From Lacunisphaera sp. (lineage in GTDB: Bacteria > Verrucomicrobiota > Verrucomicrobiia > Opitutales > Opitutaceae): a stretch of DNA of 52,671 nt. A model generated the notes under the pieces. It had not been told where the DNA came from. It ran no database searches and worked only from the letters and a program-made list of their open reading frames with translations. This document shows, one piece after another, positions 3,709 to 39,056 of the stretch. The position numbers and the translations under genes were made by a program. The first letter of the stretch is position 1. The number at the start of each line of letters is the position of its first letter. The stretch is taken from the NCBI GenBank assembly GCA_009695095.1, contig SIBQ01000014.1:1-52671 (forward strand). Reading direction: 5' to 3'.

Positions 3709-4278
3709 ATGAAAAACCTCCTCCTCTTTTTCGCCGGCCTCGGGTTGCTGGCCACAGGCAGCCGGGCTGAAAATATCAACCTCGGCGGAGGCAAATCCCT
3801 GCATTTCATCCTTCCGGGCGCCTGGATCAGCACCGACACCTCGGCCCCGTCGCCGGAGGTTTCCCAGGTCGGGAAAAATCTGCGCTATGTTCCCAAGGGC
3901 GGCAGCAGCGACGCCGTGCTCCTCACCGTTCTGCTCGTGCCCGACAACCGGTATAGCGATCGCGAAAACCTGCGGATGCTGGTGGCGGACGCGACGCAGC
4001 AGTTCGCGCCCGAGTCGGTCGAGGGCAAGGCTTTCATCAAGGAGCTGCGCACCGCCACGGTGACCGGCTTCACCGCGACCTTCACCGACATCGACCTGGT
4101 CGACAAGCCCCCGGTCAATGACGACTACAAGACGATGACCGCCTGCTTCATCTACCTGGGCGAAAAGGTCATGGTGTTTGCCACGATTTTCAGCGACGAC
4201 CCGGCCGGGCCGGCCTTCGCCGAGGGGCTGCGCCTACTCAAGTCGCTCACGCTCGCCACCCCCAAGGGCAGTATTTGA
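3709..4278 (+). CDS. Exported protein of unknown function
   Basis: A 189-residue protein with a clear Sec signal peptide (basic MKN, a hydrophobic core of about residues 4-16, cleavage near GSRA-EN). The mature part alternates short beta-like strands (FTATFTDIDLV, TACFIYLGEKVMVFATIF) and ends in a helix (FAEGLRLLKSLTL). This layout resembles small periplasmic PsbP/DUF1795-like folds, but I do not recognise a family. No cysteines or lipobox follow the signal, so it is probably soluble in the periplasm. It converges on the histidine kinase gene, with a possible hairpin at 4285-4307 between them. Confidence 0.6.
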   Translation: MKNLLLFFAGLGLLATGSRAENINLGGGKSLHFILPGAWISTDTSAPSPEVSQVGKNLRYVPKGGSSDAVLLTVLLVPDNRYSDRENLRMLVADATQQFAPESVEGKAFIKELRTATVTGFTATFTDIDLVDKPPVNDDYKTMTACFIYLGEKVMVFATIFSDDPAGPAFAEGLRLLKSLTLATPKGSI

Positions 4279-18600: not shown

Positions 18601-19866
18601 CTAACCGAGGTGCCGCGCGACCCAGTCGGCCGCCGACCGCCCTGCTGGACCATTCGCCGTGCCCTCCGTCGGCTGCTGCAGGAGTTCGCGCAACCGCCGG
18701 GACTGCGTCCGGGTCCGTTCGCGCCGCACGGCATCACCGGCGCACTCGCACAGTTGCGCCGCCAGCGCCGCGGGCGTCGCCGCCCCCTGGATGAACTCGG
18801 GATACATCGGCTCCTTCAGCAGCAGGTTCGCGATGCCGATAAATTCTACCTTCACCAGCCAGCGCGCAAAGAGATACGTCAGCGGATTGGTGCGATAGAC
18901 CACCGCGCCCGGGATTCCCGCCAGCGCGCAATGCAACGACATGGTGCCCGAACTGGTCAGAACAGCCGCGGCGGCAAATGGTAGGGCGCGGATTCCGCTC
19001 CGCGCCGGATTGTCCGAGTCGGCGAAGGGACTCGCCGCTCTACCTTCAGTCACCAGCCGCAGCTCAACCGTTTCCGCCAGTTGCGGCCACTGCGCCAGCG
19101 CCGCACGCGCCACCACGGCCACTGCGGCACTCGGATAAAGCACAATGGCCTTCGCGGCCGGCGTGGCTTTCAAAAACCCGACAAAGCCCGCCAGCAACCC
19201 GGGGAAAATCCGTGACACCGCCTGCACCCGGCTGCCGGGCAGCAACAGGACCGGGCCGGACGGATCGTAACGCACCGGCGGCGCGTAGTCCGACGCGAGG
19301 AAGGGATGCCCAACAAATTCCACCGCCAGCGGCGTGTCGGCATAGCATGCGGGCTCAAACGGAAAAATCACGGCGAGTGCGTCGAGGTCGCGCGCCATCG
19401 TGAAGCGACGCTGAGGTTTCCAGGCCCAGATCTGCGGGGAAATGTAATAGAGCAGCTTCACCCTGCCCCCACCTTTCACACTCAGCCGGCGATGCCGGAG
19501 CTTGGCCGCCAGCCGCAGGTTGAATCCGGGATAGTCCACGAAGCACACCGCGCGCGGCTGGTGCCGCTCGATCCAGCCCAGCGTCGCGTCGAACAGCGCG
19601 CTGAAAAACGAATAGTGCTTCAAAATCTCGACCAAGCCGACGACCGAGGTCGCCGTCAGGTCGTGCAGCAACTGCGCGCCGGCCGCCGCAAGCTCCGGCC
19701 CGCCCAGCGCGCAGATTTTCAGCCGGGGATTCTTGGCGAGCAGTTCGCGCACGACCTTCGCCGCGTGCTCGTCGCCCGAGTGCTCGCCGGCGACGATGAG
19801 CAGGTCGACCTTGCCAGAGATGGGAGCCGGCAAGCCAAAGGGGAGCTTCTGTTGTTCGGCAGACAT
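18601..19866 (-). CDS. lpxB: Lipid-A-disaccharide synthase
   Basis: GT19 glycosyltransferase joining UDP-2,3-diacylglucosamine and lipid X into the lipid A disaccharide at the inner membrane face. LLIVAGEHSGDEHAAKVV opens it, followed by GLVEILKHY, CFVDYPGFNLRLA, YYISPQIWAWKPQR, LLLPGSRVQAVSR and LTSSGTMSLHCALAGIP, then VVYRTNPLTY. At 421 residues it is about 40 longer than E. coli LpxB. Roughly 18 of these (SPFADSDNPARSGIRAL) come from a palindromic repeat embedded in frame at 18980-19044, just before the conserved SSGT loop. A 14-bp perfect palindrome sits right at its start codon side. The gene lies downstream of a Gfo/Idh gene on the same strand. Confidence 0.94.
   Translation of the reverse strand: MSAEQQKLPFGLPAPISGKVDLLIVAGEHSGDEHAAKVVRELLAKNPRLKICALGGPELAAAGAQLLHDLTATSVVGLVEILKHYSFFSALFDATLGWIERHQPRAVCFVDYPGFNLRLAAKLRHRRLSVKGGGRVKLLYYISPQIWAWKPQRRFTMARDLDALAVIFPFEPACYADTPLAVEFVGHPFLASDYAPPVRYDPSGPVLLLPGSRVQAVSRIFPGLLAGFVGFLKATPAAKAIVLYPSAAVAVVARAALAQWPQLAETVELRLVTEGRAASPFADSDNPARSGIRALPFAAAAVLTSSGTMSLHCALAGIPGAVVYRTNPLTYLFARWLVKVEFIGIANLLLKEPMYPEFIQGAATPAALAAQLCECAGDAVRRERTRTQSRRLRELLQQPTEGTANGPAGRSAADWVARHLG
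18980..19044. repeat. Palindromic repeat element embedded in frame within lpxB
   Basis: The plus strand starts GGTAGGGCGCGG and ends CGCTCTACC. It contains two internal hairpins, GGCGCGGA/TCCGCGCC (6-base loop) and CGGCGA/TCGCCG (6-base loop). The GTAGGGCG and CCTAC ends also flank GC-rich hairpins near 29118 and 39028. Its translation on the minus strand is an extra segment absent from E. coli LpxB. Confidence 0.7.
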
Positions 19867-29104: not shown

Positions 29105-29126
29105 GGCGGGGTCAGGCGACCCCGCC
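29105..29126. repeat. GC-rich hairpin GGCGGGGTC/GACCCCGCC
   Basis: Perfect 9-bp arms with a 4-base loop, 28 bp downstream of the SCO gene's stop (on its transcribed strand) and followed there by only TTT. A near-identical hairpin at 39031-39051 has a better T-tract. The shared CCCTAC flank points to a repeated element also used as a terminator. Confidence 0.6.
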
Positions 29127-29153
29127 CTACCGCAAAGGATTGCACAACGTCGC

Positions 29154-30074
29154 TCATTCCTTCCTGAGCCGGCGGACGAAGTCCTCGATCAGCCAGTTGC
29201 TGCCTTCCACGCGGTGGATGATCTTGCCCTGCTCGTTGATGAGCACGGTGGCGAGCGTGTGCTTGATGGTCGCGCCCTCGAACTCGCGGATGACGCCCAT
29301 TTGCGCGAGCAACTGACGCATCGCGTCATCCGGCCCGGTGAGGAACGACCAGTTCGCCGTGTCGAGCCGGCGGATCTGCGCGTATTCCTTCAGTATGCCG
29401 GGCGTGTCGTATTCCGGGTCGAGCGAGAGGGAGACGAGCTCAAGATCCTTGGCGCCCGCGGCTTTCGCGGCCTGCTGCAGCGCGGCCATGCGCTCGGTGG
29501 CGGCCGGGCACATCGTGGCGATCGGGCAGCGGGTGAAGATGAAATTGAGCACAACCTGCTTGCCGCGGAACCGGTTGCCGGCCACGGCGCGCCCTTCCTG
29601 GTCGAGCAGGGTGAACTCTGGCAGGTTTTCGCCGACTTCCCGGTAGGCGTCCTTGCCGCGCATCGCCGTGTCCTGCGCGAGGGCGCTGGCCGCCGCATCG
29701 AGCGCGCGCCGGGTCGCCGCATCGTCCGACCAGATTTTTTCGAGGTAGAAACCGTCGTCACGTTGCACGAGTTCGGCGCGGATGTGCTGGCCGGACTTCG
29801 CGATTGCCAGGTCACCTGAGGCGACCTTGAACTCCATGGTCATCGCCATCATGAAGCCCTTGATCTCGTCGTGCGCTACAATCAGGGTCTGGCGCCCGGT
29901 GTTGGCGGATACGATCTCGCCAGTCAGCGGGTAGCGCTTTTCGCCCGGCTTGATCGCAACCGCGTTGGCGGCGGTCGTCGATTCCTGCTTGGCGCAACCC
30001 GGGATGAGCAGTACGCCGCCCGCCATTAGCAAACACCGGGCCAGCCGGCTGGCCGGCGAATATCTGGGCTTCAT
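29154..30074 (-). CDS. SCO1/SenC-family copper chaperone lipoprotein fused to a CusF-like domain
   Basis: A 306-residue protein. A lipoprotein signal is present (lipobox LLIPGC, C27). Residues 47-112 resemble CusF-type copper-binding domains (LTGEIVSANTGRQTLIVAHDE with the methionine-rich GFMMAMTMEF). Residues 148-303 form a SCO thioredoxin fold that inserts copper in the CuA site of cytochrome oxidase. The metal cysteines are C183 and C189 in FTRCPIATMCP: spacing is CX5C, not the usual CX3C. H272 (IKHTL) is conserved. Start ATG 30074, divergent from ctaA by 94 bp. Position beside the caa3 genes supports a role in CuA maturation. Confidence 0.88.
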   Translation of the reverse strand: MKPRYSPASRLARCLLMAGGVLLIPGCAKQESTTAANAVAIKPGEKRYPLTGEIVSANTGRQTLIVAHDEIKGFMMAMTMEFKVASGDLAIAKSGQHIRAELVQRDDGFYLEKIWSDDAATRRALDAAASALAQDTAMRGKDAYREVGENLPEFTLLDQEGRAVAGNRFRGKQVVLNFIFTRCPIATMCPAATERMAALQQAAKAAGAKDLELVSLSLDPEYDTPGILKEYAQIRRLDTANWSFLTGPDDAMRQLLAQMGVIREFEGATIKHTLATVLINEQGKIIHRVEGSNWLIEDFVRRLRKE

Positions 30075-39005: not shown

Positions 39006-39030
39006 ACCAGATTTGACTATCTTGTTGTAG

Positions 39031-39056
39031 GGCGGGGTCGCTGACCCCGCCTTTTT
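39031..39056 (+). terminator. Terminator hairpin after oxidase subunit IV
   Basis: Perfect 9-bp stem GGCGGGGTC/GACCCCGCC with loop GCT, followed directly by TTTTT. It is the same hairpin type as at 29105-29126, including the GTAGGGCG lead. Probably terminates the ctaC-ctaF unit. Confidence 0.75.

Follow-up and report, generated by a model that had tools for sequence, protein, structure and literature searches.

GTAG-tagged REPs forming an in-frame insert in the lpxB gene of a Lacunisphaera genome

A REP dimer inside lpxB

The window, by which we mean the whole stretch of 52,671 nucleotides analysed here (Lacunisphaera sp., contig SIBQ01000014.1), carries on its minus strand an lpxB gene whose reading frame runs uninterrupted across a 65-bp pair of repetitive extragenic palindromic sequences (REPs). 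The 421-residue minus-strand open reading frame (ORF) matches the Pfam LpxB family (PF02684) with an E value of 7.8e-67, and its product matches LpxB chains in the PDB by sequence with an E value of 1.4e-29. A second lpxB that might explain tolerance of the insert was considered and rejected: the two PF02684 pieces in the genome are halves of one gene. The features of the window are as follows.

18601..19866, minus strand: lpxB, lipid-A-disaccharide synthase, 421 amino acids; open frame, no other copy found in the genome
18980..19044, minus strand: head-to-head REP dimer, touching lpxB codons 275–296 (GRAASPFADSDNPARSGIRALP), with the final base of codon 296 outside the element
18980..19006, plus strand: REP unit 1, GGTAG tag and stem–loop GGCGCGGA-TTCCGC-TCCGCGCC (BLAST, DNA fold)
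19007..19019, no strand: 13-bp spacer between the REP units; spacers vary among copies
19020..19044, minus strand: REP unit 2, GGTAG tag and stem–loop with core CGGCGA-GTCCCT-TCGCCG (BLAST, DNA fold)
29105..29131, minus strand: single REP (GGTAGGGCGGGGTCGCCTGACCCCGCC) with a CCCTACC end; flanked by two minus-strand ORFs and intergenic on a crude ORF map
39027..39051, plus strand: single REP-like hairpin (GTAGGGCGGGGTCGCTGACCCCGCC) with a TGTAGGG end; intergenic on the same crude map, between two plus-strand ORFs

A sequence-only reading of the window had placed a 65-bp block with the ends GGTAGGG and CTCTACC inside lpxB, and both the ends and the location hold, with 51 bases separating the tags. 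On the coding strand the element reads GGTAGAGCGGCGAGTCCCTTCGCCG, 13 bp, GGCGCGGAGCGGAATCCGCGCCCTACC, so that GGTAG and its complement form the outer ends of two stem–loops. Two hairpins, as described in that reading, were recovered in the DNA fold: one has 8 bp and the other 6+3 bp interrupted by a single bulge, and each closes with a 6-nt loop. Compared with dinucleotide shuffles, the block folds with z values of −2.85 as DNA and −3.63 as RNA. The GTAG tags of both units are unpaired in the DNA fold, except for the last G of one, and the two tags pair together in the RNA fold. The block thus consists of two GTAG-tagged REPs arranged head to head and forms a REPIN-like miniature element. Its units belong to the GTAG REP super-family by their tag outside the stem, their multiple and mostly intergenic copies, and their stem and loop sizes, which lie within the ranges in Table 1 of PMC3733652 (5–13 bp and 2–20 bp, respectively).

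An AlphaFold2 model of the protein has a mean pLDDT of 89.2, with most blocks at 90 or more; block means over residues 271–300 are 64, 54 and 77. This low-pLDDT stretch lies between a strand at 267–271 and strands at 297–304, and the alignment sets the invariant SGT at residues 306–308, after the insert loop. In a Foldseek search the model ranked the PDB LpxB entries 5w8x, 5w8n and 5w8s at the top (E values of 6e-18 to 3e-17), with a loose superposition on PDB LpxB entries (TM-score 0.51/0.58, r.m.s.d. 17 Å). In the predicted structure, then, the insert falls within a loop of low confidence ahead of the SSGT turn. Because the loop varies among relatives, it probably lies outside the catalytic machinery. 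LpxB with the insert would still be functional. The converse, a decaying lpxB in which the insert marks lost function, might draw on a genome smaller than most in the family, but the 421 codons are open, invariant alignment residues stand on either side of the insert and this is the sole lpxB found; we regard decay as highly improbable.

Related copies in the same genome

The assembly holds 2,144,518 bases in 41 contigs and is 91.52% complete. A BLAST search placed the block at 13 sites in this genome at E ≤ 10 and at 7 with E ≤ 0.001, lpxB counted. For a 67-bp query the best matches, which cover nearly the full query, reached E values of 2.6e-13 elsewhere in the genome and 1.6e-14 in relatives. 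At E ≤ 0.001 the element type occurs in 18 of 120 family genomes, that is, in 17 of the other 119, with copy numbers that are lower bounds. These copies refute the reading that the insert is ordinary variation in LpxB loop length, palindromic by chance, even though the same segment varies as well in relatives that we did not class as REP-bearing (reaching 15 residues, or 28 in the case of L027); we give that reading practically no weight.

Copies matching REP unit 1 lie, by BLAST, at C38:3741, C17:41946, C34:3356, C34:24792 and C30:27062. Head-to-head dimers recur too: the pattern GGTAGRGN{24,54}CYCTACC has 8 places in the genome, including lpxB, versus 1 for a reversed control. The seven beyond lpxB include none on the window's contig, and the pattern also picks up a second REP family of the GGGGCGCTTGCCC type. 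Restricting the pattern to 40 bases or fewer between tags, a spacing below the 51 of the lpxB block, gave no match. Beyond lpxB these searches gave 19 places in the genome. We checked the context of 12 and found 3 inside ORFs and 9 between ORFs or at their edges; the 12 exclude L002 and L009–L014, two of which (L009 and L014) are pieces of the L006 and L007 elements.

A loose hairpin scan of the window itself returned nine places, lpxB among them. The sequence-only reading had proposed that the flanks of the block match those of intergenic hairpins in the window; of the nine places we take two, at 29105 and 39027, as intergenic single REPs on the crude ORF map. The stems of these two REPs are nearly identical to one another (GGCGGGGTC/GACCCCGCC).

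One LpxB site compared among relatives

We found an LpxB match in 114 of 120 family genomes and read all 114 sequences; two of them (L119 and L134) stop short of the site, leaving 112 rows, to which 12 hand-chosen named rows were added for a total of 124. Named loci encoding relatives of the window's LpxB come from Opitutaceae and further Opitutia; metagenome-assembled genomes of Lacunisphaera and Didemnitutus rank near the top. The named loci number 80, 25 of which repeat sequences among the 112; L192 and L215 are unreadable by the pattern used, which leaves 78.

The site was defined as the segment that follows a strand, VELR in the window's protein, and extends to the A(A/S)AVLTSSGT motif. 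It is exactly 6 residues long in 71 of the 124 rows and 9 or fewer in 103, compared with 27 in the window's protein, a net gain of 21 residues over the commonest length. The gain of about 18 residues ahead of SSGT claimed from the sequence was therefore right in place and imprecise in size: the string quoted has 17 residues and the element touches 22 codons. The element has 65 bp against a net gain of 63 bp, which means that some flanking bases have been altered as well. The same reading had stated that Escherichia coli LpxB lacks this stretch. The PDB LpxB chains, which we take to be those of E. coli, do lack the REP peptide, but instead of a clean gap they show unrelated residues there, along with 8 gap positions.

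REP-derived inserts occupy the site in 6 of the 112 family LpxBs (L022, which is the window's, L023, L025, L026, L044 and L045) and in 1 of the 78 readable named loci (L158); L025 and L158 have decayed tags and were assigned to the class by eye. A hairpin scan restricted to the 114 family sequences picked out L022, L023, L026, L044 and L045 at the site, as well as L027, which has a 28-residue segment with a GC-rich insert and loose hairpins and was left out of the count for want of a GTAG tag. L028, a possible deletion remnant, was likewise not counted.

The seven inserts represent three kinds of element, one of them in both orientations. The window's lpxB carries a GCGCGGATTCC/GGCGAGTCCC pair; L044 and L045 have a single REP with a GGGGCCGCTGGCCCC core; and L023 and L026 contain nearly the same two REP stems in reversed order, as expected of one dimer in opposite orientations. 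REPs of a CCGCTGG-loop kind are found in the lpxBs of genomes G009, G107, G001 and G079. By inspection, the recognizable ends share one reading frame in all seven inserts, with GGT-AGG on the left and CTA-CC on the right, or decayed forms of these; in L044 and L045 just the right end is present. The inserted residues themselves differ among the REP-bearing homologues.

Two further REPs were seen in these genes. The lpxB of G002 (L031) has a single GTAG REP at a second site, around residue 236 of the window's protein, and L044 has an additional REP at or just upstream of the lpxB start.

Separate insertions or one ancient insertion

CCGCTGG-loop REPs (pattern GGTAGGGN{4,8}CCGCTGG) number 6, 9, 28, 4 and 3 in G009, G107, G001, G079 and G060, counts that include lpxB copies where these match and that compare with a control of 1 in each of the five genomes, so that the 3 in G060 scarcely exceed it. 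In the window's genome the pattern has no match (control 3), and the window's element type has none at E ≤ 0.001 in any of those five. The match between lpxB element and host repeats is not exclusive to insert-bearing hosts: CCGCTGG-loop REPs are also repeated in G059 (24), G050 (12), G015 (5), G027 (5) and G085 (3), the lpxBs of which have no counted insert. More broadly, the dimer pattern matched at least once in 78 of the 120 genomes of the family, counting the window's own; since many of them yield matches to the control pattern too, only high counts are meaningful, such as 94, 67, 44 and 43 against controls of 5, 1, 1 and 0.

Trees of LpxB (112 and 124 rows) were built without the segment columns. 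The REP label requires at least 6 changes on both trees, and starred branches force at least 5, which may be gains or losses. Its scatter resembles that of shuffled labels, with 500 of 500 shuffles as low on the first tree and 55 of 500 on the second. In the 112-row tree L022 groups with three REP-less rows (SH-aLRT 98); this grouping dissolves in the 124-row tree, where L022 sits beside L023 with a support of 13. Because this neighbourhood is unstable between trees, the independence of L022 and L023 rests on element type rather than on the tree.

One group on the tree brings several states of the site together: L158 has a dimer, L028 (its neighbour, with a support of 99) has a remnant-like segment, L026 has the reversed dimer, and L084 and L150 have a short segment. 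L026 and L084 are 96% identical over the protein columns of the tree and share 1,118 of 1,224 aligned bases, and the bases adjoining the site diverge more between them than the remaining gene does. From these changed bases, local allele exchange probably contributed in this group, and the flank differences would fit local recombination as well as clean insertion.

An alternative history has a single ancient REP insertion in an ancestor within Opitutaceae, followed by many losses, with type and orientation changed in place by conversion or flipping. Left-flank xSEG/xTEG residues common to L022, L023, L026 and L158 would suit it, as would the resemblance of L028, a near twin of L158, to a deletion remnant and the poorly supported pairing of L022 with L023 in the larger tree. 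The EG flank, however, recurs in the REP-less rows L100, L104 and L117; most REP-less relatives show an ordinary short segment free of scars; the wide scatter on the trees would demand many losses; and the element kinds differ, the window's kind and the CCGCTGG kind never occurring together in the window's genome, G009 or G001. We therefore consider a single ancient insertion unlikely, although it deserves some weight. Separate insertions at the LpxB site are favoured, because most of the lpxB elements belong to types that recur in the genome of their own host.

Occupation of one site in seven genomes also raises the question of whether the insert has been domesticated and is maintained by selection, with the loop, or else the hairpins of the lpxB transcript, controlling the expression of LpxB or its activity. 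The strong RNA structure predicted for the block (−35.1 kcal/mol, in addition to its RNA z value) would accord with such a role, but the inserted residues are unconserved between genomes, the sisters L084 and L150 do without the insert present in L026, and the loop is predicted at low confidence. We judge domestication very unlikely.

The block is repeat DNA in an open frame, most relatives lack it, and some carry other REPs at the same place. We put at about 90% the probability that a REP dimer inserted into lpxB and has been kept as an in-frame, tolerated loop. The proposal of a repeat element turned protein insert, made from the window alone, thus gains support both from the genomic copies and from the LpxB relatives, most of which are without it.

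A stronger version of this reading makes the loop a true REP hot spot in Opitutaceae, entered independently at least three times by different families at one and the same codon (GAAGG or close to it), in both orientations and the same frame, through target preference and not tolerance alone. We hold this idea to be doubtful at present, about on a par with the ancient insertion. Repeated occupation of one loop would allow target preference to be told apart from tolerance, something beyond the reach of single cases, and close relatives offer natural filled and empty lpxB alleles.

REPs in other genes

Among the 12 places checked, REPs lie in frame in three more ORFs of the genome, two of which encode DNA repair proteins.

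C38, element 3741–3801, ORF L004:1001–1972: REP dimer in an OGG-like 8-oxoguanine DNA glycosylase, between the N-terminal and HhH-GPD domains
C34, element 29384–29422, ORF L007:452–2293: REP unit in the interdomain linker of MutL, read as GRAASPFA
C18, element 75926–75981, ORF L017:2–2287: REP dimer from another family, head to head, within the frame of a penicillin amidase

The octapeptide GRAASPFA, from REP unit 2, is common to LpxB and MutL of this genome. The MutL linker varies among relatives, so alignment cannot prove insertion there. Of 10 genomes searched for the glycosylase, counting the window's own, 8 gave a match; in the seven aligned relatives the loop is short in L220, L222 and L224 and longer, with another sequence, in L219, L221, L223 and L225, the extra length being about 4 to 11 residues, with L225 much longer. 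In the OGG-like gene of L225 (G027) the long insert at the loop has runs like SQLSSLSTLSSQLST and resembles short-unit repeat DNA. In L006 (C34:24792), an OsmC-like ORF ends at a TAG stop that comes from the GTAG tag of a REP.

Relation to known repeat systems

REPINs of Pseudomonas, which occur with RAYT transposases, consist of two inverted REPs and a short spacer that form a unit. The lpxB element shares the inverted pair and the short spacer; it differs in that its genome has few copies (the 7 places at E ≤ 0.001) and no Y1_Tnp match. Rickettsia palindromic elements (RPEs) are palindromic repeats retained as in-frame protein inserts. The lpxB element is alike in being a palindromic repeat so kept, and differs in phylum, tag type and sequence families, distinctions drawn here by description. 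The comparison with RPEs offered in the sequence-only reading is apt as an idea, but the element is a GTAG-type REP, of an intragenic kind published in 2013. Extracts of that publication (Di Nocera, De Gregorio, Rocco 2013; PMC3733652) place RPE-4 and RPE-6 with CGTC repeats.

The same extracts describe intragenic GTAG REPs, with the largest number in Opitutus terrae, a member of Opitutaceae; the phenomenon is thus already on record for this family. The likenesses described there extend to the GTAG tag, the short stem–loop, the head-to-head dimers and the several families per genome, to intragenic copies within the same bacterial family (O. terrae), and to the suggestion that loop and linker insertions are neutral. 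Extracts of PMC3733652 also report many intragenic copies in replication and repair genes, echoed by two of our three further genes, REP tags that give a TAG stop to a neighbouring ORF, as in L006, and, as their only case of REPs at nearly the same site of one gene, recB of two Xanthomonas species. The main text of that paper does not name lpxB. Literature searches for repetitive extragenic palindromic sequences in Opitutaceae found nothing under that phrase, and pairing the term with lpxB returned, by title, other subjects only. The new part is modest, namely the repeated occupation of one LpxB loop by REPs. The window's insert provides a structurally interpretable case in which an intergenic repeat has turned into protein sequence in the one lpxB of a genome.

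Mobilization and retention

REPs have been hypothesized to be moved by RAYT transposases, according to extracts of PMC3733652. A profile search found no match to Y1_Tnp (PF01797) in the 91.5% complete assembly of the window's genome; 106 of the 120 family genomes have one. From 521 Y1_Tnp places listed in relatives we read 19, 7 of which encode proteins of about 330 amino acids or cut versions of these; among the 12 others, the ORF chosen in L245, L252 and L253 lies in a frame other than that of the transposase. The flanks covered about 0.5 kb or more per side where the contig allowed, with about 0.2 kb upstream in G001 and none downstream in G027. Tagged REPs stood on both sides of the gene at none of the 19 places. 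Stray tag strings occur nearby in L238, L245, L249, L255 and L256, with a possible REP only in L245, where it is cut by the contig end. A RAYT link for the lpxB element was accordingly not established, with neither a Y1_Tnp gene in its genome nor a REP-flanked one among the places read.

We suggest the following course of events. A GTAG REP dimer would have transposed into lpxB, its hairpins probably handled as single strands by a Y1/HUH (RAYT-like) transposase, and we lean towards a Y1-type enzyme that has since been lost or is absent from the assembly. The element would have been retained because it happened to be in frame, had no stop and lay in a variable loop that follows a beta strand and precedes the SSGT turn, through tolerance and not benefit. 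It is probably a stranded relic in the window's genome, because no such transposase is now seen there.

Two relatives have near-tandem rows of three Y1_Tnp genes, at G075:C1:723729–725730 and G064:C1:2622989–2625510.
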